Below, in pieces: positions 25,509 to 63,479 of a DNA stretch of 64,000 nt; positions within the stretch are counted from its first letter, which is position 1; each line of letters starts with the position of its first letter. The position numbers were made by a program, and so were the translations under genes. This stretch comes from Geobacteraceae bacterium (GTDB taxonomy: Bacteria; Desulfobacterota; Desulfuromonadia; Geobacterales; Geobacteraceae): the NCBI GenBank assembly GCA_009773645.1, contig WSYB01000021.1, positions 66,838 through 130,837 on the forward strand, read 5' to 3'. Under the pieces are notes generated by a model. That model saw only the letters and a program-made list of their open reading frames with translations, did not search any database and was not told the DNA's origin.

Positions 25509-25584
25509 GCCGGATTACCTCAGTTGGCAGAGGACGCGATTCGTAATCGTGCTGTCGCCGGTTCGATTCCGGCATCCGGCTCCA
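25509..25584 (+). tRNA. Complete tRNA-Thr, anticodon CGU
   Basis: 76 nt with encoded CCA. The acceptor pairs GCCGGAT with ATCCGGC, the D arm is TACCTCAGTTGGCAGAGGA, the anticodon arm is CGCGA-TTCGTAA-TCGTG (anticodon CGT) and the T arm is GCCGG-TTCGATT-CCGGC. It lies about 80 bp inside the prophage end and decodes the same codon (ACG) as the disrupted gene at 25389, so it probably replaces it. Confidence 0.95.
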
Positions 25585-27475: not shown

Positions 27476-30397
27476 CTACTCTGAATCCAAGGGCGAAGGG
27501 CCAATGTCGGACCAGTCCGTATCATCCGCCTTTTCATCAAACACCGCTTCCGCTGCGCGTTTCGTCCCGTACAGTCCCAGCGTCATCATGTGGCTATTCA
27601 CCCGCTTTTCCAGTTCATCTGACATGCCTTTCCGCGCCATGGTCATGAGAGTTTCCGCTACGTCTGGGTTAACTATGGCCTCTTTTAACAGGCCGTTCAC
27701 CTGCTCCTGGCTGTACTTCGTGGCCGGTGACAGCATCCCCTTGAAGATGTTTTTCGCTGCACTGAATACCCACCCCTTGCCAGAAACTACCACGCCAAGC
27801 GTGGCAAACCCTCCCGCCAAGTCTTTGCCGATTTGCGCCCCATTGATCTTTTCAACAGTTGTTGAATTCTTGGAATAGGAAACGTTCTTGTTGCGGGAAA
27901 GCGTTTCGAGAATGGCGTGGTAATCCTTCAGCGCCTGGATTTTTTGCGATTCTCCCTTGTATAGAACCTCCATGGCCGGCATGTACTTGTTGATGAAGTC
28001 CTTCGCCTTCGCCTGGCTGTGAAAAGGATTTCCCATCACATCCGGGGGTGAGTTCATTTCGATCTTCTTCAAGAAGAAATCCTTGAAGGCGTTCTGCACC
28101 CCTTTGGTTGCCGCCTTGTTCCCCCGAATGCCTTCCGTTCTCAAGAGCTCCTGCATGGTTTGGGCGCTGGCGGTGCGGCCCTTGCCGGAAAGAATCTGCT
28201 CCATTACCTTCTCAACGTCGTTTCCAAGAACCTTGGAAGCCACGCCCCGGTTGAACTTGTCGAGGGTCGCATGGGCGACGTCGGCGTTCTTCTGAGCGGT
28301 GGCGACGTTCATGAATTCATCGGTCAGGCCGTACTTGTCGAGGACGTTCCGGTTCTTCTGCACCCAACCATAAACCCGGCTTGTCTGTAACTCACCGTTG
28401 ACAGAAGTGGAGTTGATAAGGTCGTGAGCTGCATAATCCTTAATAAGCGTCCGCGCCTTGTCCTTGCCTACAGCCCTTACAAGGTCGTCTGCCGCGTCCA
28501 TCTTGCCGGTCTGGAAGAAACGGGAAGGGATAGCGTCAAGAGTGGTTTTCAGCCCCGTGATTTCATCCCCCCGTGACAGAACGTCCTTGACGGCACCACG
28601 CCCAAACCGGTCAAACTTCTGCTCCTTGCTGAACCTCTTGGCTGCGGTATATTTCGCCGCCACATCCTCGGCGGGCTGGAGGTTGTCAAGCATGTCCTGA
28701 ATCTGCTTGGTCCTGGTGGACATACCTTCGATATGCTTTGATACCCCGGCATTTTGCATCGGTACATCGCCCAACCCTTGCCGCTGATATTCTTTGACCA
28801 TACGCCCCGTGTAAGCAGCTTCCGATTCAGCCGGTTGCCGCATTGCCGGGACGCCTTTTGCAGTCAGAGCTTTCGAGATCGCTCGCACATCTGGGACGCC
28901 TTGCATCCTCGTCTGTTCATCCACAATCCGTTTGCCAAGATCATCCATTTCTGATTGCAGACGACTGGGATAAACAATCTGCCCGTCATGAATTGCCACG
29001 TCGCCTTTTTCTGCCGCAAGAGCCATGTCGTCAAAGTCGCTGGCAACGGCTGATTTCAGTTTGTCCAGTTCGTAAGCAATATCCCGCCGCCCCCCGCGTA
29101 AAGCCTCCTGGATGCGTCCGTTAATGGTCCGCTCTGCCGCTTGGAGCCCTTGGGTAGTCTTGGGGAGGGATTCGATATAGTCAGTGACAGAATCAATCGT
29201 GGCTCGGACGCTGCGTTCCATTGGCTGTTGATTCAGGTCTTTGATAGCTGTGGTGATATTCTGCGTCGGCATGGGATAATTTGGGACTTCGCCCCAAAGT
29301 TGACGCTCCGTTTCTTTCACGGGGGCAACCGCCTCGTCAAGCGCATCAATAATGGCCTTACCCGATTCCTGCGGGTTCGCCCCATACCGGATATTGTCCG
29401 CCGATTCACGGGCCGTTCTCGCCGCCGCTTCCGCGCCTTGAGCAAGCTGTGCCTGTTCACCCTCAACACCTTTCACCACATCGTCAATCCCTTCTGAGCC
29501 CTTGAAAGTATCATCCAAGAAGGCGAGACCCTGTTGCTTGATTCCCGCATCCTGATAGTGGAGCCGGTCCGCCAGGTCGCCATTTTTCGCCGTCATGGAC
29601 TGTTCAAATGCCGCGGCCTTCGTATCGCCGGTTGATTGGGCATAGGTAGGGGCCTTGATGCCGGTTCGCTTTGCGAGCCCTGCGGTCTCCTCGGCGCGTC
29701 TTGCCGTCTGTTCTTCGGCCACGGCTGAAGGGGTGCGCTCATCAATTAACTGCTCTCCCGCACGGGTAGCATTGCGCTTGTTGCTGAACGGCAAGCCTTT
29801 TGCCTTGAGGCGCTTTGCACCCGTCCAGGCTGTACTTATCCCCTTGGCCGCTGCCTGCCCCCCCATTTCCAAGGTCGCCCCGGTCTCAACATCGGCCACG
29901 GTCTGCAACATGCGGTTGGTCATGTCGCCGCCGTCACGCAACCCCACCGCCTCGTCTATGGTGTCGGCAACGTTTTTGCCAGCCGCGTATCCGAGGGCTG
30001 CACCGGCAACGGTCCCGACCACCGGTCCCGCGCCACTGCCGACAATTCCCCCGCCTACCGCCCCGCCACCTTCCAGAACGGGCCGGATATAGGGTGAAGC
30101 GGCCTTGACGACGTTCTTTGCTCCTTCCTTAATCCGGGTGCCGGTTGAGCCCTCTTTGGCGACAAACTCCCGGCGCATCCGTTCGGTTTCCTCCGGGGAG
30201 GCATTGGGATTACCTACCGTGCGGGTATTCCCGCCCCCCTGCCAGAACGGTTGCGTCTTGAGTTCCGCCAGCACCTTGTTTTGTTCGGTCTGGGGGAGCC
30301 TGGCAAAGTCGCGGTCCACCCGTAGCAGCACTTTGCGCCGTTCGGAAAAAGGGAGCCCCTGAAAGTCCCGGTCTTTCACCACTTCGTCAAAAGTCAT
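27476..30397 (-). CDS. Large virion protein, probable internal ejection protein
   Basis: 973 residues, mostly alpha-helical and charged. A short N-terminal helical domain (VVKDRDFQGLPFSERRKVLL) is followed near residues 105-150 by a glycine-zipper-like hydrophobic stretch (GGGAVGGGIVGSGAGPVVGT then GAALGYAAGKN) that could insert into a membrane. Being the largest late product and the last before lysis, in a row with two medium-size proteins, fits the ejection-protein trio of podoviruses (P22 gp7/gp20/gp16 type). No enzymatic motif seen; inference from position and composition. Confidence 0.65.
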   Translation of the reverse strand: MTFDEVVKDRDFQGLPFSERRKVLLRVDRDFARLPQTEQNKVLAELKTQPFWQGGGNTRTVGNPNASPEETERMRREFVAKEGSTGTRIKEGAKNVVKAASPYIRPVLEGGGAVGGGIVGSGAGPVVGTVAGAALGYAAGKNVADTIDEAVGLRDGGDMTNRMLQTVADVETGATLEMGGQAAAKGISTAWTGAKRLKAKGLPFSNKRNATRAGEQLIDERTPSAVAEEQTARRAEETAGLAKRTGIKAPTYAQSTGDTKAAAFEQSMTAKNGDLADRLHYQDAGIKQQGLAFLDDTFKGSEGIDDVVKGVEGEQAQLAQGAEAAARTARESADNIRYGANPQESGKAIIDALDEAVAPVKETERQLWGEVPNYPMPTQNITTAIKDLNQQPMERSVRATIDSVTDYIESLPKTTQGLQAAERTINGRIQEALRGGRRDIAYELDKLKSAVASDFDDMALAAEKGDVAIHDGQIVYPSRLQSEMDDLGKRIVDEQTRMQGVPDVRAISKALTAKGVPAMRQPAESEAAYTGRMVKEYQRQGLGDVPMQNAGVSKHIEGMSTRTKQIQDMLDNLQPAEDVAAKYTAAKRFSKEQKFDRFGRGAVKDVLSRGDEITGLKTTLDAIPSRFFQTGKMDAADDLVRAVGKDKARTLIKDYAAHDLINSTSVNGELQTSRVYGWVQKNRNVLDKYGLTDEFMNVATAQKNADVAHATLDKFNRGVASKVLGNDVEKVMEQILSGKGRTASAQTMQELLRTEGIRGNKAATKGVQNAFKDFFLKKIEMNSPPDVMGNPFHSQAKAKDFINKYMPAMEVLYKGESQKIQALKDYHAILETLSRNKNVSYSKNSTTVEKINGAQIGKDLAGGFATLGVVVSGKGWVFSAAKNIFKGMLSPATKYSQEQVNGLLKEAIVNPDVAETLMTMARKGMSDELEKRVNSHMMTLGLYGTKRAAEAVFDEKADDTDWSDIGPSPLDSE

Positions 30398-30399
30398 GG

Positions 30400-31722
30400 C
30401 TACAGTCCTTTTTTCTTCTTGAAGAAGTCAGAGGCGGTTTTCGGCTGTCCACCGCCCCCTGTATTGCCGCCGCCGCTGATTCTATTGCCACCGCCCTTGC
30501 GGTTGATGACTACCCGGTTCGCATCTGCCCCGGTCTCGCTGGCAATCCGCTTGTATTCCTCCGAATGATTGTCATAGAGCGCTTTTGCGTCACGGTAGAA
30601 ATCCCGCCCAAGGGTGATGATCGCCTTCCGCTCATCATTGGTGAAACCGGCGCCACCGCTTCTTATCTGGTCCATCTTACCGATAACGCGGGAAAGTATC
30701 GGACTGTTTTGGATGGTCCGGGCATACTCCCCTTCGCGCACTGCCGACATATCGTCAAGCATCTTGTTGAAGACCATAATAAGCGACTGGTCAAGGGCGA
30801 TGAAGTTCTGTTTCGTCCGGTTCTTCGGGTCTTGAAGTTGATTCACCACACTTTCCATACGGCTAGTCTGCTGCCGGATGGTGTCAAAGGATTTGACGAT
30901 GGGAGCACCTTCAAACTCCTTACGCAGTGTCACTTCATAGCGCCGGTCCTTATCCGGATTGCCGGTAGTGATGCTGATCTTTTCCTTCGCCTTCGTCGGG
31001 TCAGGGGCACCCTGCAACATGTTCCCCTGTTCGGTTAACCAGCTCCACCCGGTCGGGGAAGATGGGTCTTTGACTGCCTGAGACTGCGGCTTGTCCGTCT
31101 GCTCCTTGTTGTCTGCCGCCTTGGCTGCACCGGTCATTTTGAAAGCGAATCCTGGCGGCATAGCATCTGCCACCTGATCGAGAGTGGGGGTGCCTGTAAC
31201 ACCCTGTTCTTTCAGTTTATCCCTAGCAAGACCAAGCGCCTGTAGATTGAGTTGATAAGTGGTTTTGCTTTGGCCGTCAGCGGAAAAACCTTCGACGGTC
31301 ATCCATTGATCTTTATCAATCTTCTCTTTAACCCTGAAACCAGGGGACAATGTTTCCTGAAGCAGAGGGTCTTTTGCAATCATCTGGTTGGCTGCATCAG
31401 CGTCAATCTTGGCCATTTCAAAAAAGTTTTTCATGGCCTTATCCTTGCGATCTTGGATACTCTTTTCCTGCTCCATCTTCAGCACGTTGCCTAGGTATGT
31501 ATCCTCCTTGCCCGTCTGTTGCTGGTCGAACTCTTCGGCCTGCGCCTGGTCCCGGCCAAGGGCATACAGAAGAGGGAGCTTGCCAATACCTTCGAGGCCG
31601 GTGATTCCCCCGTCTTTCGGCATAGAACTTATGACCCCGGCGGTGGTCTGCATCCGGCGTTCAAAGGGGTTCTTCTGCTGTTTCATCAGTTGCGCGTATC
31701 CCGATATTCCCAGTTCGGCCAT
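30400..31722 (-). CDS. Probable virion/ejection protein with Gly-rich tail
   Basis: 440 residues, highly charged and helical, with many Lys/Glu and Gln-rich runs in the first 250. The C-terminus has glycine-rich stretches (KGGGNRISGGGNTGGGG) before a basic end FFKKKKGL. It is spaced only 2 nt from the next gene. Likely one of the three proteins injected with the DNA; no family recognised. Confidence 0.6.
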   Translation of the reverse strand: MAELGISGYAQLMKQQKNPFERRMQTTAGVISSMPKDGGITGLEGIGKLPLLYALGRDQAQAEEFDQQQTGKEDTYLGNVLKMEQEKSIQDRKDKAMKNFFEMAKIDADAANQMIAKDPLLQETLSPGFRVKEKIDKDQWMTVEGFSADGQSKTTYQLNLQALGLARDKLKEQGVTGTPTLDQVADAMPPGFAFKMTGAAKAADNKEQTDKPQSQAVKDPSSPTGWSWLTEQGNMLQGAPDPTKAKEKISITTGNPDKDRRYEVTLRKEFEGAPIVKSFDTIRQQTSRMESVVNQLQDPKNRTKQNFIALDQSLIMVFNKMLDDMSAVREGEYARTIQNSPILSRVIGKMDQIRSGGAGFTNDERKAIITLGRDFYRDAKALYDNHSEEYKRIASETGADANRVVINRKGGGNRISGGGNTGGGGQPKTASDFFKKKKGL

Positions 31723-31733
31723 GATAAACCCCC

Positions 31734-32981
31734 TTATCCCATCAGTGAAAATTTACCAGCTTTGGTCTGTGTAGGTGCAATGTTAAAGCTGCTACCACCG
31801 CCCCCGCCTCCTCCACCGCCCGATTTGCCCCCGTAGAGATAAAGAAGCCCGCCCGCTAGGTTGCTCCCGGCACTGGCATAGGAAGAGGACAGGCGCTGCT
31901 TCGCTTCCCAGTCGGCCAGCTTGTTGGCGTTCTGGGCGCTGTAGTAGCCGAGCGTCCCGGCATAGTTCTGGCTGGCAATGTCGGCGTTGCTCTTCTGCAC
32001 CTGTGCGTTTGCCAGAAGGTCGGATCGCTGCCCGGCGTCAATCTGGCCCAACAGGTTCGCCCAATAGGTTCGATCATTGTTGGTCAGCGTCTCTTTCGCC
32101 ATGGTTGACTGGTTGGCTATGTCCGTGTCCTGAGTGGCTTTCAGCTTGTCCAGCTCTGCCTTGGTGTCCACGTAGGCGCGGGAACCGAACATGCCGGTAG
32201 CGTTGGCGGTCTCATCTTCGTTTCTCTTGATCTTTTCAAAGCGCGGGTCAATGTCCCGGTGCATGGAGTCGGCGTAAGCCGTACCGAATTGTTCAATCTG
32301 CGCCTGACGCTCCGGGGAAAGTTCGTTGAGGTTACCCATGGCCGTTGTTCGCAGTTCGGCCAGCTTTGCCTTTTCCGCGTCCCGTTCGGCCTTATCGACC
32401 TCCCATTTGGCATATTTCGTGTTATAGTCGGCCAGGTCCTTGTTGTACTGTTCAAGGACCGTATCCACCTCGTTCAGCATTTTATCATATTCTTCGGCTC
32501 TCCACCCGCCGCTGTGTTTGGCAACGCCGCCGGGGTCTGCCGCTACGTGAGCTTGGAAGCGCCTCTCCACCTCCGCCTTGATAAGCGGGTCTTGCATGTC
32601 TTTGTCGAAATTGGTAACTCTTTCGTAACCTATAATATTGCCTTCACCGTCCGTCTGAGGCGTTTCCGTGGCTCTTGTTATCCTGTTGGCCCATTCCGTG
32701 GCGGGCTTCGGCGGTTCCGAGTTGGGGCCGTAGGTGATCCATTCACCGGTTTGGGGGTCACGAACATTTCGGGACAGAATCTCCCCGTCTTCTCCGTAGA
32801 TGGTTGAATTTGAAGGTGGAAGCGGGGCAGAGTATGAAGGAGCGCCGGGGGCGGTGGCTAGGCTGTATGCTGTCATGCCAAGGCCACCAATAATCCCAAT
32901 AGCCGCTATCCCTTCCCATGTGAGGAAATAACATACCCCTTTCTGCATGGCTCGTTCTTGGGCAGTGGTAAATAAACTCAT
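31734..32981 (-). CDS. Probable virion/ejection protein with one membrane segment and a glycine run
   Basis: 415 residues from ATG 32981, which has GAGGAGG 7 nt upstream and overlaps the radical SAM stop (ATGA). A hydrophobic helix (IAAIGIIGGLGMTAYSLA) lies near residues 25-43, a long charged coiled-coil-like region runs from about 115 to 310, and the C-terminus carries nine consecutive glycines (GGKSGGGGGGGGGSS). The N-terminal membrane helix resembles small ejection proteins that line the inner membrane. Function inferred from order. Confidence 0.65.
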   Translation of the reverse strand: MSLFTTAQERAMQKGVCYFLTWEGIAAIGIIGGLGMTAYSLATAPGAPSYSAPLPPSNSTIYGEDGEILSRNVRDPQTGEWITYGPNSEPPKPATEWANRITRATETPQTDGEGNIIGYERVTNFDKDMQDPLIKAEVERRFQAHVAADPGGVAKHSGGWRAEEYDKMLNEVDTVLEQYNKDLADYNTKYAKWEVDKAERDAEKAKLAELRTTAMGNLNELSPERQAQIEQFGTAYADSMHRDIDPRFEKIKRNEDETANATGMFGSRAYVDTKAELDKLKATQDTDIANQSTMAKETLTNNDRTYWANLLGQIDAGQRSDLLANAQVQKSNADIASQNYAGTLGYYSAQNANKLADWEAKQRLSSSYASAGSNLAGGLLYLYGGKSGGGGGGGGGSSFNIAPTQTKAGKFSLMG

Positions 32982-33745
32982 TGCAATACCTCCTCGTTGG
33001 CATATTGGGCAAGGGCTACAGGCATGAATTCGCCGTTCCAGGCAAGGAACATACAACCAGGAATGTTGTAAGACTCGTCATATTCGGCTTTCGTGGGGGA
33101 GCGTCGCAGCACGATACTAAAGCCATCTACATTCACAACTGATTTGCCAGGGGTGATAAATGGGAGTTCAAACTGTGGCAGACACCGCGTTACCCCCTCG
33201 ATCAAAGCACTCATCTTCATGGCGGGTACATCTCTGCGGTAGACAGTGGAAATGGTGGCAGTATGGAAACCATCCCGGTTTGCCAGAATGTATTCCACGG
33301 CGGCCTTGATATCTTCCTCGTTGTCTACGCTGAAGAGCCCGGCCATGATCTTCAAATCGCGCCGTCGGCATTCATCAAGTAGAGCCTGTTTTTTCTCCAC
33401 GATCCATTCAGGGAAGAGAGACGGGTTGTGAACGCTTAGTGCAATGTCCAGCGTGCCACCCTTGCAGAATTCGAAGATATGATCATGAAGAGTCCCATTG
33501 GTAATGGCAAACACCCGATATCCGTTAGCTTCAAGTTCAGCCTTGATTTCCAGTATCTTCGGGCTATTGAACGGTTCTCCACCAGTCAGAGCAACGCCAT
33601 GTATCGGTTTTCCAATCCTGCCGAGAGCGCCAAGAACATGCCAAATATTGAACAATGGCTGAGAACTCAAATGCGCAGCGCACCACGGGCATGAAATATT
33701 GCAATTATTGGTGATCGGGTAGGTAGCTAAAACCAAATGTTCCAT
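32978..33745 (-). CDS. Radical SAM enzyme inside the virion gene cluster
   Basis: 255 residues. CX3CX2C at Cys15, Cys19 and Cys22 (NCNISCPWC) binds the [4Fe-4S] cluster, and TGGEP at 54-58 contacts SAM; the remainder fits a partial TIM barrel. Near the C-terminus a single Cys (GCMFLAWNGEFMP) recalls the start of a SPASM-like region but is insufficient for a second cluster. It overlaps the following virion gene and is spaced 19 nt from the lipoprotein peptidase gene, so it is expressed with the late operon. Substrate unknown; a protein or peptide target is possible. Confidence 0.88.
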   Translation of the reverse strand: MEHLVLATYPITNNCNISCPWCAAHLSSQPLFNIWHVLGALGRIGKPIHGVALTGGEPFNSPKILEIKAELEANGYRVFAITNGTLHDHIFEFCKGGTLDIALSVHNPSLFPEWIVEKKQALLDECRRRDLKIMAGLFSVDNEEDIKAAVEYILANRDGFHTATISTVYRRDVPAMKMSALIEGVTRCLPQFELPFITPGKSVVNVDGFSIVLRRSPTKAEYDESYNIPGCMFLAWNGEFMPVALAQYANEEVLQ

Positions 33746-33764
33746 AATATTTCTCTACCTCCGC

Positions 33765-34343
33765 TCAAAACGACAGCCATTTCCCTCTCCATGCGGGGTA
33801 TTCGCAGACGTTGAATAGATATGTGCTATGGCCTTCAACCCCTACCCCTGTCAACCAATGGATTAATTCATGCGCGAACAGGCTATTATAAGAGGGGTCA
33901 CGGAGCGTGGTGGAGTCCATCAAGTAGATTATGTTCGCATCAAGGTCAGTACATCCCGCTGAAGTCTCCTGTCCTCCACAGGTGAAAGGACGATCAACTA
34001 CAATAAATGTCGGGCTGCCGGGCATAATCGGACCATTGTAATTTTGTGTCACACACGCCTTAACGTCTTCAAAGGCTGACTGTAAGGGGTCGGCCTGAGT
34101 TGTTATATCCCCTTGGGAAAGAATCTTTGCGCCAGCTAGATCAACGCCAGAAACAGGGTTTGTTGACTGCCCGCAACCCATGAACAGTGCCAAGATCAAA
34201 CAGCCTAACCAGCCCTTCGCCTTTGCTGTTTGGACAATCAATTGGCTAACCGCCTTGTTAAGATTAAATCCGCCCATTTGGTCCCTCAACCACTTTAATG
34301 CTCTTCCTGCTTCTTCTGTGAGTCTTACCGATGTTGCATTCAT
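33765..34343 (-). CDS. Lipoprotein metallopeptidase with N-terminal RHH-like segment
   Basis: 192 residues from ATG 34343 (AAGGAGG 7 nt upstream). Residues 1-45 read like a ribbon-helix-helix DNA-binding segment (MNATSVRLTEEAGRALKWL). Then GWLGCLILALFMGC is a lipoprotein signal with lipobox Cys57. The C-terminal domain has HELIH (158-162) with a possible third ligand His172 (EGHST), a zinc-peptidase motif. A TTG near residue 35 would give a plain lipoprotein, so two products are conceivable. It could cleave envelope or virion protein. The combination is unusual. Confidence 0.7.
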   Translation of the reverse strand: MNATSVRLTEEAGRALKWLRDQMGGFNLNKAVSQLIVQTAKAKGWLGCLILALFMGCGQSTNPVSGVDLAGAKILSQGDITTQADPLQSAFEDVKACVTQNYNGPIMPGSPTFIVVDRPFTCGGQETSAGCTDLDANIIYLMDSTTLRDPSYNSLFAHELIHWLTGVGVEGHSTYLFNVCEYPAWRGKWLSF

Positions 34344-34405: not shown

Positions 34406-35581
34406 TTATTCAATAATCTCCATAGCAAACCAAGAATATCCGCCAGCAGATGTTCCTGTATTCTCGGCTCCGGGGGGGTGAAGCTCAAAGGTATCCCCCC
34501 CAGCAACAGGCAGCACCGGAGAGGCCGTTGGATTTACAATCCCTGCGGCATCAGCATAGCCTATCACATACCCAGGATAGACGGCTGCACTGCCATTTTT
34601 ATACAGGATAAGGTACGATGCTATGTTGTCGTGTCGAAAAGACAACCTAACTTTAGTCGCACCGGCTGGGACTACTAATGTTCCCGCATTAGGAGCATGA
34701 ATATTATCTGTGTCATATGATTCTGCTGTCCAGGCTATTATCGCACCTGCTGTGGCTCCGCTAGGGTTATATACCAGCGCCCCTCGGAATGACGTAGGAA
34801 GCGACGCCTTTCCTGTGATATCACCCGGCAGTTTGCCGCTGCCGTCACGAACCGGTATGGTGCTTGCCGTGGTCCCAGTATTCTGCACATAGCCGTTTAG
34901 GGTAGAAGCCGCCCCTACTATCTCACCCACAATTTGACCGGAAGTATTCCGTAAAACTATCGTATTGGCCGTGGCATTAACATTGGGACTATAACCGCCA
35001 AGGGTCACGGCATCTCCGGTAATACTTCCCGGCAGTTTCCCCGTTGCATCCCTGACGGCTATGGTGCTTGCCGTGGCGCTTGTGCTCACTGGGTAGCCAG
35101 TGGCCATTTTGGCCGATACGGAACCGTTTTGGAGCACGGGCTTTACCACCGAATAATAAATCTTGATGATTGGGGTTTGCAGAACCGCATCGGCAATGGT
35201 TACCGTCGTCGTGTTGGGGCCTGAAGAGTAGGTGGCGGAGACGATTTCCGAATAAACAGAGCTGCCGGTGATATCGGCCTTTACACGTCTGGTTGCCAGA
35301 AACTCGGTAAGATGATCACCAATGACCGTAAATTGAGTAGAGCTGACATATGTTGCCGGTTGGACGTAATCGTACCATTCGGAAGCGTTCTGGTTCAGCG
35401 AAAGGCCGTTGATTGCAGTAATGGCGTTATTGAATTCGTTGTCCAGCTCTGCCGACGGCAGCGGCGCTTTCTGCGCCGAAAGCGTCTGAAACCTGGTGGT
35501 ACCTTTGGGCCGCACTGCAACGCCGTAACAGAGACTTGCCGTAAGCATCAGTACCGTGACAATTGCCGATAAACGTTTCAT
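34406..35581 (-). CDS. Tail-fibre-like protein with an apparent signal peptide
   Basis: About 391 residues from ATG 35581 (GGGAGG upstream; ATGA overlap with the previous stop). It starts with a textbook signal peptide (MKRLSAIVTVLMLTASLCYG), unusual for a virion component. The middle has repeated segments of about 40 residues (ASTIAVRDATGKLPGSITG, ANTIVLRNTSGQIVGEIVG, ASTIPVRDGSGKLPGDITG) as in fibre shafts. The C-terminal third is beta rich, like a receptor-binding head. It may be exported and surface displayed, or the hydrophobic start may be an attachment domain. Confidence 0.7.
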   Translation of the reverse strand: MKRLSAIVTVLMLTASLCYGVAVRPKGTTRFQTLSAQKAPLPSAELDNEFNNAITAINGLSLNQNASEWYDYVQPATYVSSTQFTVIGDHLTEFLATRRVKADITGSSVYSEIVSATYSSGPNTTTVTIADAVLQTPIIKIYYSVVKPVLQNGSVSAKMATGYPVSTSATASTIAVRDATGKLPGSITGDAVTLGGYSPNVNATANTIVLRNTSGQIVGEIVGAASTLNGYVQNTGTTASTIPVRDGSGKLPGDITGKASLPTSFRGALVYNPSGATAGAIIAWTAESYDTDNIHAPNAGTLVVPAGATKVRLSFRHDNIASYLILYKNGSAAVYPGYVIGYADAAGIVNPTASPVLPVAGGDTFELHPPGAENTGTSAGGYSWFAMEIIE

Positions 35582-37062
35582 AGTTTGCCTCCCATGACCC
35601 CTTGAATGATGATGTTGTTCCACTCGATGGGTCCTTGTGTAGAGATATTGGATATGATGATCTGCACCGCCTTACCGTAGCCAAAGAGAGGTAACCGCAG
35701 GGCGCCGAACTCCGTTACCGAATCCATGAAAAAGGCGTTGTCCCATGTGTCGGCCTGTGGTGCGTCCATGAATGATATGCCCGGTTTCGTCTGTACGGTC
35801 TGGATATTTCCCGGCATGACGGCGTTCATATCGTGGGAGATCATCACATCCAGGTTGATGTTCACTCCCTTACCGAACATCATTTCCATGATCTTCGGAT
35901 ATCCCATGAAATTCTGCCGACTGTACGGCATCCAAGGGCTTTCCCAAACCATATTGATAGGGGTCTGGTCGAACGACCAGTACCCGCCGTAATCGTAGAC
36001 AAGCCCAGTCCCGCACAGGTACATTCTGCCATTCATGAGGTGGAACAAGCCGTTCACATCCGCCCCCACCATGCGCCCCCACGCCTTCCAGATGTAGGAG
36101 TATATCCATACCACTTCATTGATGAGAAAGCATGACCAGCCGCGCTGTGGATAGTGGGCGACGGCAAAGTCATTGCCAAGGGCGAGGCCATACTTGATTT
36201 CCCGTTGAATGGCCGTTGCCTCGTATTTGGATACGTCGCCGATGCTCATGTTACCGGTTGTCACCACCTGGCGAAGGCTTTTAACCCCCGTATCGTGGAG
36301 AAAGAGGAGGTCGCTCCCCAGCGGGAGAGCCACATTCGGGGAAACCACCCCCACCCCGCTGATCACCTGCACCACCCGGAAGTCTCCGCCCGCTGTGGGA
36401 TTGGTCCCGGAATAAATCACTACATGGTTGCGAAAGAGAAACACCAGCAAGTCAACGTAGGTCACGATATCCAGAAGCTCGTCCCCACGGGGCAACACAT
36501 ACCGAAAATCAATGTAACCGGCATTGGCCGCCGTCGTGTAGTCTTCGGGGGCGTTCAAGGCCGAATGAAAGGCCATCATCCGGTTTATGCCGTCCGTCCA
36601 CCAGACGCGCCCCTTGTGGACATGGGGCTTGATGAATTTGGTATTGACCGGCAAGCCCCCGAGGTTTGGCACGGCTGCCCCGTCATAGATCATGGGGACA
36701 TCGACCCCATTGCTCATGATGCACTTGTCAGCGATCTGGGCAAACCAGACCTTGGCCGCGCCATTAAGCCCGATCTTCAGGTCTTCCAGGACGTTGACGT
36801 TGAGCTTCCATATCTTGCCACTCCCCGCCGCCAGAATGATCGTGGTGCCGTCGCTCTTCTTGTACTCGAAGCCGGTCTTAATGGCTATTTCCAGCGGGTT
36901 CAGGTTCACACGGGAATAGCCCGGAATTTTTCCCAAGCCTCCCGTTTCCGACACATGGCAATTCTGAAGTTTGACTGCAAACTTCTGCGGCATGGCCAAG
37001 TAAGGGTAGATGGATGATTCACCACCGGAAAAGTCGAGTATGCGCAGAATTTGGCCGATCAT
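35578..37062 (-). CDS. Packaged-DNA stabilisation/tail-connector protein (P22 gp10-like role)
   Basis: 494 residues, beta-rich with repeated short motifs (AAGSGKIWKLN, MSNGVDVPMIYDG, FLFRNHVVIYSGTN) as in propeller-like head-completion proteins of short-tailed phages. Position directly after the adaptor-like gene and before the tail fibre supports a plug role closing the connector. Assignment is by resemblance and order; it could also be another tail tubular protein. Confidence 0.65.
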   Translation of the reverse strand: MIGQILRILDFSGGESSIYPYLAMPQKFAVKLQNCHVSETGGLGKIPGYSRVNLNPLEIAIKTGFEYKKSDGTTIILAAGSGKIWKLNVNVLEDLKIGLNGAAKVWFAQIADKCIMSNGVDVPMIYDGAAVPNLGGLPVNTKFIKPHVHKGRVWWTDGINRMMAFHSALNAPEDYTTAANAGYIDFRYVLPRGDELLDIVTYVDLLVFLFRNHVVIYSGTNPTAGGDFRVVQVISGVGVVSPNVALPLGSDLLFLHDTGVKSLRQVVTTGNMSIGDVSKYEATAIQREIKYGLALGNDFAVAHYPQRGWSCFLINEVVWIYSYIWKAWGRMVGADVNGLFHLMNGRMYLCGTGLVYDYGGYWSFDQTPINMVWESPWMPYSRQNFMGYPKIMEMMFGKGVNINLDVMISHDMNAVMPGNIQTVQTKPGISFMDAPQADTWDNAFFMDSVTEFGALRLPLFGYGKAVQIIISNISTQGPIEWNNIIIQGVMGGKL

Positions 37063-38857: not shown

Positions 38858-39835
38858 TTAACCGATGCAGGCGGTTTCTACCCTCATCATCCATAAATCC
38901 TGGAGAATCGCCGTTGCCGTGTACCCTTTCCAGCCAACAGTGCCGCGTTGTGCCAACGGGTCAGAGTCGGTGGGTTTCGGATTGTTGACATAAGTGGAAA
39001 CTGCGTTTTTCCCGGCCAGTGCCACGGTCGCATAGGCGTCCTTGCCGAATATCAGGATCGGGTAGACGTCCGAACTCACCCCGGTGGTGGAAAGGGTCGC
39101 GCCCTTTGCCCCGCCCGCATCGGCCCACGGGGTGATATTGTTATCCTCAACAAACCGGAAATCACCCACGCTGCCGCGTTCGCCTTCAATCAATCCCATT
39201 GCAGTGGGGTATTCGGAGACGTCCTTCCACCCCGCCATTTTTTCAAGGTCCGGGAACATGTCACAGTGGCAGACGGCAATAAAAGCCGCACGGATCGGAC
39301 CGGTGCCGACGTTGGGTCCGGCCTTGATGACTTCCTTGATCGGCTTGGCGTGCTGCCGACGCAAAAGCCGGGCGATGGTCCTCAGTTGATCGCGGGACAC
39401 AACCGTGTTGACGGCGTTACGCGCCACGCCGTTGGCGTAGAAGACACTTGTACCGGCCTTCAACGTACCGGCCCGGAGAATATCCCATGTTTCCCCCGAC
39501 TGCTCGCCCAAGATATCGGTCGATTCCTGAAGCACGGGGTCTTCATGGGTGTCCTGGATAACATCGGTAATGGTGATGAAATCGCCGTACTGCTGAAGAT
39601 TGACGGTAATGTCGGTTTTTGTCAGGGTTTTGCCATTGGGCGTCACGCCTTCCAGCAAGGGGACCGTGGCTGCCGTCAGCTTGTTGAAGCGCCGGAAGGT
39701 GATTGACTTGGTGCTTTTCGACGGAATAGTCCGGCTCTGGCCGAACTGCCCGAGGATATTGTTGGGAGTGGCGCGGGTTAACAGTTTCCTGTCAACATGA
39801 GCCTGTGTCCGCGGCGAAATGTCGTTGTAAACCAT
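38858..39835 (-). CDS. Major capsid protein, N4-gp56 family
   Basis: 325 residues. Start ARTQAHVDRKLL-like region, FGQSRTIPSKSTKSITFRRF, LLEGVTPNGKTLT and the conserved QYGDFITITDVIQDTHEDPVL followed by LGEQSGETWDILR are characteristic of the N4-gp56 major capsid family (HK97 fold). The C-terminus GTVGWKGYTATAILQDLWMMRVET is also typical. Full length; preceded by a scaffold-type gene. Confidence 0.88.
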   Translation of the reverse strand: MVYNDISPRTQAHVDRKLLTRATPNNILGQFGQSRTIPSKSTKSITFRRFNKLTAATVPLLEGVTPNGKTLTKTDITVNLQQYGDFITITDVIQDTHEDPVLQESTDILGEQSGETWDILRAGTLKAGTSVFYANGVARNAVNTVVSRDQLRTIARLLRRQHAKPIKEVIKAGPNVGTGPIRAAFIAVCHCDMFPDLEKMAGWKDVSEYPTAMGLIEGERGSVGDFRFVEDNNITPWADAGGAKGATLSTTGVSSDVYPILIFGKDAYATVALAGKNAVSTYVNNPKPTDSDPLAQRGTVGWKGYTATAILQDLWMMRVETACIG

Positions 39836-62353: not shown

Positions 62354-63034
62354 ATGCTTATTGCACATACAAGAAAAATAACTAAAGTAACCCGCATGGA
62401 TGTAACCCAGGACAAAATGCGGAAAATTACCGGGTCAAATCTGGCCCGACTTCGTAAGGGAAAAAAATTAACCCTTGAGCAGTTAGCTGAACAAGCCAAT
62501 ACCAATGCCACCTATTTATCTGCAATCGAAAGTGGGAAGAAAGGGTTAGGACCGGGGCTGCTGATTCGATTATGCAACGCACTCAAGGTCGATGCTTCTG
62601 AGTTCACCCGGCCCCTGGATGATTTTAAACCGGCCCCCCCGCCATCGGGCAAGATCGCTGTTATCTCCATGGGCAAGGGCGGGCCGGAAGGTTACTATGA
62701 AGCGCCCTATCCTGTCGGGCATGGCTTTGACTACATCGACCGGCCTTACGATGTGTCCGACGAGAACGCCTACGCCGTCAAGGTGGTTGGTGACTCCATG
62801 TCGCCACGGTATGAAGAAGGGGAAATCGTTGTGGCCTCGCCTCAGAAGGAAGTCCATACCGGTGATTATGTGGTTGCGAAGTTGTCGACCGGTGAGGTGA
62901 TGATTAAAAAAATCAAGTTCCGGGAAGGGTTGGTGATCCTGTCCAGCGTCAACCCGTCTGTTGAGGCGTGGATTTGCAAGCCGCGGGAGATTGTTTTCTA
63001 TCACAAGGTGGTTTGGAAGAAAGAAAAGGGGTGA
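62354..63034 (+). CDS. Phage repressor, XRE HTH plus S24 peptidase-like domain
   Basis: 226 residues. HTH: ITGSNLARLRKGKKLTLEQL, ATYLSAIESGKKGLGPGLL. C-terminal S24 fold with GDSMSP (Ser148) and a Lys near 185 (GEVMIKKIKF). The usual Ala-Gly or Cys-Gly cleavage dipeptide is not obvious between the domains, so it may be inactivated by the antirepressor rather than by RecA. ATG 62354 lies 31 nt after the -10 box; ATG 62396 is an alternative. Confidence 0.88.
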   Translation: MLIAHTRKITKVTRMDVTQDKMRKITGSNLARLRKGKKLTLEQLAEQANTNATYLSAIESGKKGLGPGLLIRLCNALKVDASEFTRPLDDFKPAPPPSGKIAVISMGKGGPEGYYEAPYPVGHGFDYIDRPYDVSDENAYAVKVVGDSMSPRYEEGEIVVASPQKEVHTGDYVVAKLSTGEVMIKKIKFREGLVILSSVNPSVEAWICKPREIVFYHKVVWKKEKG

Positions 63035-63047
63035 AAGGGGGGAACTT

Positions 63048-63479
63048 ATGAAAAAACTAATACTGGGAGGTTTTTTATTTTTGGCGGGGTGTGGCAGCGG
63101 TGGGAGCGGAAACTCGGCAGTCAATTCGACCCCGGTTCTTGACCCCCCAACAATATTGAATCTCCAAATTTCCCCACAATCTGCCACATTGAATGAAGGC
63201 GGAACACATGTTCTGGTTTCGGGAACTGTGACGATAACTGACCCTGAATTTTCAAATACTCGATACCTTTACGTAAAATCTCTAGACCCCAACGGGAATA
63301 TTATCCAATCCATTAAGAATATCCTGGAAGGTGGTGGGATTGTTGCCAACACTAAAGCGCAGATACAAATCAATATGCCAACTACTACAAGGGGCAATCT
63401 TTCGATTTTGGTTTATCTTGAAAACCCGGCCTCTGCGTTAACATCAAATTTTCTTACGACACCGTTCCCAATAAATTAA
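63048..63479 (+). CDS. Small lipoprotein next to the repressor (lysogenic conversion candidate)
   Basis: 143 residues from ATG 63048 (GGGGGGAA upstream). Lipobox LAGC after a short hydrophobic start (KKLILGGFLFLAGC), a Ser/Gly linker, then a single Ig-like beta domain (LNLQISPQSATLNEGGTHVL, YVKSLDPNGNIIQS). Co-directional and 13 nt after the repressor stop, so transcribed in the lysogen. Superinfection-exclusion or host-surface roles are plausible but unproven. No close family is apparent. Confidence 0.75.
   Translation: MKKLILGGFLFLAGCGSGGSGNSAVNSTPVLDPPTILNLQISPQSATLNEGGTHVLVSGTVTITDPEFSNTRYLYVKSLDPNGNIIQSIKNILEGGGIVANTKAQIQINMPTTTRGNLSILVYLENPASALTSNFLTTPFPIN

Follow-up and report, generated by a model that had tools for sequence, protein, structure and literature searches.

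What would a radical SAM (rSAM) enzyme encoded among the virion genes of a short-tailed phage act upon? This question was raised by the window, the whole stretch of 64,000 nucleotides analysed here, which contains a temperate podovirus-type (short-tailed) prophage of ~40 kb integrated in the bacterial chromosome. A 21-bp repeat forming the attL core in the 3' part of a tRNA-Thr gene (25554–25574, plus strand) recurs at 65392, past the integrase, and the prophage length was therefore taken as about 39.8 kb. A CI-like repressor is encoded at 62354 and an integrase-like gene lies immediately beyond the window edge. PHROG family matches were obtained for terminase, portal, major capsid, stabilisation protein and endolysin. 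The late operon lies on the minus strand, as do all the genes described next, in the order terminase, portal, scaffold-like gene, capsid, stabilisation protein, tail fibre, HExxH gene, rSAM and three ejection-type genes. The major capsid protein (N4-gp56-like, 38858–39835) matches phrog_1357 (4.3e-68) and is 39% identical to the annotated capsid of Pun_Y3, and the P22 gp10-type stabilisation protein (35578–37062) matches phrog_5107 (2.4e-23), phrog_3287 (2.9e-15) and an annotated phage stabilisation protein. The tail fibre-like protein (34406–35578) has a signal-peptide-like N-terminus, and its N-terminal part is related to the 121-aa gene preceding the rSAM of another genome of the order, G114. 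The second ejection-type protein (30400–31722, gp15/gp20 position) has a Gly-rich C-terminus and matches phrog_13634 (4.6e-11, function unassigned), its role being assigned from gene order, and the large third one of 973 aa (27476–30397, gp16 position) was placed by order and size only.

The rSAM gene (32978–33745, minus strand) encodes a short-form enzyme of 255 aa and is preceded by a good ribosome-binding site (GCGGAGGTAGAGAAATATTATG). The original prediction of a CX3CX2C rSAM gene within a virion operon held: the protein contains CNISCPWC at residues 15–22, scores 39.7 bits with Pfam Radical_SAM (PF04055, 7.4e-10, cut-off 29.5 bits) and has virion genes as neighbours by PHROG. Cys15, Cys19 and Cys22 were invariant across 27 rSAM relatives, and the C-terminus carries a family-specific motif (LAWNGEFMPVALAQYANEE). 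A partial TIM-barrel fold was predicted by the AF2 model (pLDDT 83, pTM 0.84). The fold search with this model returned MoaA, GDGT-MAS, viperin-like proteins, SuiB and PqqE, with MoaA and other rSAM structures at a probability of 1.00, and these resemblances of the model are judged to be generic. No NCBIfam assignment reached its cut-off (best 27 bits, cut-offs far higher). Similarly, neither a Pfam SPASM match nor the cysteines of an auxiliary cluster were found when SPASM/twitch domains were looked for. The short-form C-terminus has a single conserved Cys (231), which is not retained in the long form of the enzyme described below.

Finding relatives took alignments and a search through the genomes of the order. 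Among 141 genomes of the order, close relatives were found only in G091 (67% identity, full length) and G114 (63% identity, C-terminus deleted), and a remote one of 344 aa in G118 (29% identity over the core). The viral contigs contributed L030, which is 70% identical, and L031, which is the same prophage as G091 (contig JAFLLC010000007.1, MAG labelled Deltaproteobacteria). When the G118 enzyme was used as query, 37 viral contigs with a long-form rSAM of ~25% identity to the short form were recovered; several of these are near-identical and thus not all independent, and clustering at 90% gave 31 distinct enzymes, short forms included. The long form carries an N-terminal zinc ribbon of the HMPTM/Tes type (PF23545, 6e-16), which is absent from the window rSAM. 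Because the C-terminal motif 'LA..G...PV.LAQ..NE' is common to both, the short and long forms are best seen as one family, and the best solved relative of the family profile is GDGT-MAS (2.7e-28). Extra scans for short-form loci gave none beyond the three independent intact ones (window, G091 and L030). The window rSAM, stabilisation protein and capsid, each run as a single query sequence against viral and genome contigs, gave no hits. The tblastn search of the long form found no match in 50,697 phage records, as against dozens of viral contigs, and the long form would therefore have escaped isolate-based work. An rSAM of the human-gut phage MT835493 was rejected as a relative; it is unrelated and adjoins a ribonucleotide-reductase-like gene, and is therefore probably NrdG-like.

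The phages carrying the enzyme are diverse. The G114 prophage is related to that of the window (terminase 62%, portal 75%, capsid 69%), G091 and L030 are T7-like phages with structural genes other than those of the window, and G118 and most long-form contigs represent phages different again from both types. The dN/dS was about 0.02–0.2 in close long-form pairs and the dS of the short forms was saturated or nearly so; the sequences indicate that the rSAM relatives are under purifying selection. In the G114 prophage (L018, 1501–2200), a deletion fuses rSAM codon about 190 to an internal gp14-like codon, shortening both genes, and the structural genes upstream of the deletion are 50–75% identical to those of the window.

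The gene following the rSAM, here called the partner (31734–32981, minus strand), encodes the first ejection-type protein, of 415 aa, with a hydrophobic segment near the N-terminus and a run of nine glycines at residue 388, near the C-terminus. Both the ATGA spacing and the glycines had been noted originally and were confirmed: the TGA of the rSAM overlaps the ATG of the partner, and the next protein downstream has the Gly-rich C-terminus as described. The start and stop codons of the pair also overlap in G091 and L030, and G118 is arranged alike. Among the 37 long-form contigs, 6 stop inside the rSAM and 31 run on past it. In 29 of these 31 the next gene starts at −20 to +4 nt from the rSAM and its product is N-terminally hydrophobic, so that the relatives stand beside ejection genes in other phages and not always in unrelated metabolic contexts. 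In the remaining two, the partner is 130 nt away in one and a strand switch, perhaps an assembly effect, intervenes in L037. The partner bodies belong to 7 sequence families and the genes upstream of the rSAM to about 19. Together with a virion gene whose product is hydrophobic at the N-terminus, the rSAM gene forms a two-gene unit that recurs in otherwise different podoviruses, the pairing being seen in dozens of further phages from the environment.

The nature of the partner was then sought in protein families. Six of nine tested partners matched T7 gp14 or P22 gp7-type ejection families: those of L048, L027, L059 and L066 matched phrog_598 'DNA ejection' (4e-26 to 8e-8), and those of L024 and L030 matched phrog_418 'internal virion protein' (1e-34), L024 being also above the T7_gp14 cut-off. 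The G091 partner also has a match to the gp14-type family (T7_gp14). Tested members of three partner families led to 'DNA ejection' (phrog_598) or 'internal virion protein'/T7_gp14, and where such a match was obtained the partner is identified as an ejection protein of T7 gp14 or P22 gp7 type. The window/L063-type, L034-type and L044 partners gave no family match. As the window partner has no match of its own in Pfam or PHROG, its gp14/gp7 role is taken from its position, its membrane segment and its relatives, its body being 55% identical to the L063 partner, which is itself downstream of an rSAM. From position and hydrophobic N-terminus, and for the window also from likeness to the L063 partners, we infer that the window/L063- and L034-type partners are ejection-type proteins.

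The window pair has the same operon place as gp13-gp14 of T7 and gp7 of P22. T7 and P22 are not known to encode an rSAM. Of the T7 core proteins, gp14 leaves the virion first and ends up in the outer membrane, and its P22 counterpart is gp7 (PMC8954989); the partner is probably the protein that the phage injects first into the host. In G091 the pair is placed between gp13-like and gp14-like genes, and a gp13-like gene is found upstream of the rSAM in G091 (phrog_308, 2.8e-44) and L030. In L030 (4818–5998), gp13-like and papain-family protease genes lie between a tail-tubular-like gene and the rSAM. The idea of a general slot for modifying enzymes ahead of gp14 was dropped: confirmation was limited to the gp13-like neighbours in G091, L030 and L081, and the small genes preceding the L077 and L078 partners gave no family match. 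The gp7-like ejection proteins of these two, from a Vibrio and a Pseudomonas phage (L077 3914–4717, L078 3923–4738), are not hydrophobic at the N-terminus, and their C-termini bear a Peptidase_S74 chaperone domain.

The enzyme form was found to vary together with the N-terminus of the partner. All three intact short-form rSAMs are paired with a partner bearing FLTWEGIA at residues about 19–26, just ahead of the membrane segment; in the window the motif (residues 19–26, 32904–32927, minus strand) is a candidate recognition or modification site. The partners start as MSLFTTAQERAMQKGVCYFLTWEGIAAIG in the window, MRRRVPGLYQSELYSTRNFFLTWEGIAIAS in G091 and (V/M)IRFRPGLYQSDLYSNRRFFLTWEGIAVIA in L030. 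The DNA pattern of FLTWEGIA occurred in 2 of 2.9 million viral contigs, both rSAM-bearing, and among the 141 genomes only in G000 and G091, which are those with an intact short rSAM. The codon differences within the motif are all synonymous, and simple hitchhiking is argued against because the 18 residues before it are almost wholly different between the window and G091/L030. In G091 the part of the partner that matches T7_gp14 begins at residue 27, which places FLTWEGIA in an N-terminal extension.

Two comparisons are informative on this covariation. The partner bodies of the window and L063–L065 are orthologous (about 50–55%), and L063–L065 have a long-form rSAM and partners without FLTWEGIA, whose N-termini read EFCGYVIAA, QFCGIVIAA or QFCGIVMAA; the same body thus occurs with two rSAM forms and two N-termini, and so the enzyme form and the partner N-terminus change together. 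Conversely, G091 and L030 combine a short rSAM and FLTWEGIA with a gp14-type body unlike that of the window, and therefore the same enzyme-motif pair is found on two different bodies. A single deletion in G114 took both the C-terminus of the rSAM and the N-terminus of the partner. Some of this covariation could have arisen if the rSAM travelled together with the neighbouring 5' end of the partner gene, and with three independent intact short-form loci the link between FLTWEGIA and the enzyme rests on n = 3. No single motif was identified in the long-form partners, and an 'aromatic + membrane' N-terminus as universal substrate was rejected, as it is the same in the gp14-type proteins of L079 and L080, phages without this rSAM.

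Because the rSAM is tied to an ejection protein and to its N-terminal segment, modification of that segment before packaging would be the simplest reading. We consider it probable that the rSAM is a dedicated maturase of the first ejection protein of the phage and acts on the N-terminal membrane segment of the partner. The enzyme would bind the nascent partner at the FLTWEGIA segment and cleave SAM with its [4Fe-4S] cluster, and one or more residues of the segment would be modified before the partner enters the procapsid. The possible chemistries include a crosslink, C-methylation or another C–C bond, epimerisation and beta-modification; C–C bond formation or C-methylation is thinkable from the Tes/HMPTM-like branch, but the sequence predicts none of these chemistries. 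As T7 gp14 would suggest by analogy, the modified N-terminus may help insertion into, or assembly of, the outer-membrane pore of the DNA-ejection conduit; or the modification may mark a leader for removal, in the manner of the first 20 residues of P22 gp7. Like SuiB, PqqE, SkfB and the sulfatase maturase, the phage protein has an rSAM core, with fold matches to SuiB and PqqE, and its gene lies beside that of a presumed protein substrate; it differs from these peptide maturases in that no SPASM or RRE domain was recognised and that the partner is a large virion protein and not a short peptide. A post-translational modification of an injected protein had been proposed originally, and this part gained strong circumstantial support from the tie between rSAM and ejection gene in many phages. 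The glycine runs proposed with it as target fared differently: they are not a plausible target and are probably irrelevant, because the partner orthologues of L064 and L065 are without the run, and it is the FLTWEGIA segment that tracks the rSAM.

Some phages, these findings suggest, subject their DNA-injection machinery to chemical modification. More tentatively, and with doubts of our own, podoviruses may employ radical chemistry to remodel the membrane segment at the N-terminus of the protein ejected first, giving a modified, RiPP-like pore or anchor for DNA entry, enzyme and target segment passing between phages as matched pairs. Ejection proteins build the channel that carries the DNA of short-tailed phages across the cell envelope, and their switch from a packed to a membrane-inserted state is poorly understood; a dedicated radical enzyme, if true, would add an extra chemical step to virion maturation. 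Such a modification would escape virion proteomics unless modified N-termini were searched for. The literature search found no rSAM linked to ejection proteins or to their radical modification, the nearest match being a mention of HExxH in N4 RNA polymerase, and neither the papers nor the phage records covered by the searches report an rSAM family locked to ejection-type proteins. The rSAM and its partner make a concrete candidate enzyme-substrate pair that is testable in vitro.

In a RiPP-like variant of this reading, conceivable though unlikely, the N-terminal 18–26 residues of the partner would recruit the rSAM as a leader and then be cut off by a peptidase, encoded by the phage where it has one or otherwise supplied by the host, as for P22 gp7. 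A host protease trims 20 residues from the N-terminus of P22 gp7 ahead of assembly (PMC4992974), the residues preceding FLTWEGIA differ between the window and G091/L030, and in three loci whose partners are extended at the N-terminus the gene immediately before the rSAM is peptidase-like. The phage candidates are the HExxH protein of the window, a papain-type protein in L030 (Peptidase_C1, 3.6e-19) and a C92 protein in L065 (Peptidase_C92, 5e-6). However, most loci have no evident peptidase beside the rSAM, the C1 and C92 enzymes might just as well serve in lysis or at the cell wall, and for the HExxH protein, an orphan, family support is weak.

The HExxH gene (33765–34343, minus strand) had been described as a lipoprotein zinc peptidase. 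The ORF is real, with 192 aa from an ATG with a strong SD (AAGGAGG, then MNATSVRLTEE...) and HELIH at residue 158, but its N-terminus is polar: about 45 polar residues stand ahead of the hydrophobic stretch WLGCLILALFMGC, which is therefore not a normal lipoprotein signal, barring an internal start, and a lipoprotein is doubtful. An internal TTG start could yield the lipoprotein alone. These first ~45 residues resemble a ribbon-helix-helix regulator (MNATSVRLTEEAGRALKWLRDQMGGFNLNKAVSQLIVQTAKAKGW) fused in frame to the lipoprotein-like stretch. A peptidase is weakly supported, by a sub-threshold Pfam DUF6647 score (17.9 against 24.1 bits) and a weak PHROG metalloprotease match (0.029); the single-sequence fold was uninformative (pLDDT 39) and no relative was found among the 141 genomes of the order. 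A conserved pair of rSAM and HExxH was rejected, the HExxH gene being found only in the window phage, outside the conserved unit; its place is taken by the papain-family protease in L030, the C92 peptidase in L065, a T7 gp13-like gene in G091, or unrelated genes.

It is distinctly unlikely that the rSAM modifies another virion protein, such as a gp15/gp16-like protein or the tail fibre, its place beside the first ejection gene being merely convenient. Those proteins are encoded in the same operon and the rSAM is near tail genes in many loci; against this, the partner alone is constant while the upstream genes vary, it is FLTWEGIA in the partner that tracks the enzyme, and the pair of L034, L035 and L040, between terminase and portal, has no other tail or ejection gene close by within the available sequence. 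This terminase-portal location may be positionally analogous to that of T7 gp6.7 and gp7.3, which lie immediately before the portal gene (T7-like phage table, PMC4517105), gp6.7 forming an outer-membrane channel with gp14 (PMC11784390). The three loci and L036 have a long-form rSAM and a 122-aa hydrophobic partner with a Gly/Ser-rich tail, and the L036 pair likewise lies between terminase and portal, the contig ending near the end of the portal gene.

A QueE-, viperin- or Tes-like action of the rSAM on a small molecule, lipid, tRNA or DNA base, changing the host envelope or metabolism or countering defence, is improbable. The GDGT-MAS match of the family profile, the HMPTM zinc ribbon of the long form, and MoaA and viperin in the fold search speak for it. 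But the NCBIfam models all stay below cut-off, including that for Tes (window rSAM 18.3 bits, long form 64 bits, cut-off 450). The phage long form is also about 340 aa as against about 500 for the known Tes/HMPTM enzymes and has its own C-terminal motif, the window short form is without the ribbon, and the gene lies in a virion operon and not in lipid or pterin biosynthesis. The QueE test was negative for the window rSAM (phrog_2076 E 0.048; QueE models about 19 bits, cut-offs at least 260; virion operon context), and the annotated phage rSAM genes matched, mostly QueE, share the rSAM core only, with weak matches to the N-terminal core alone (best E 2e-5). Metabolic neighbours are absent, and start/stop coupling to an ejection gene across many phage lineages would be needless for a soluble metabolic enzyme. 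The host-envelope modification offered originally is disfavoured because the partner is constant. Accidental cargo (a moron) or a remnant without virion function is hardly credible: no rSAM is annotated in capsid-gene relatives such as Pun_Y3 and Rollin, or near the ejection genes of these, StenR_269 and two Manatee Spring phages (capsid/stabilisation relatives), but dN/dS is low among the relatives, the pairing with ejection genes is repeated and the C-terminal family motif is kept across about 25% identity.

Two minor observations concern other proteins. The fibre proteins of the window (34406–35578, minus strand; MKRLSAIVTVLMLTASLCYG) and L063 (3514–5976; MRRSSWWIVVAVSCALMACQAFG) have a signal-peptide-like sequence ahead of the usual fibre start, an odd feature for a virion protein whose assembly is cytoplasmic. 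In addition, a small lipoprotein-like ORF of the window (62961–63479, plus strand) containing MKKLILGGFLFLAGCGSG adjoins the CI-like repressor in the same orientation and is a candidate lysogenic-conversion protein.
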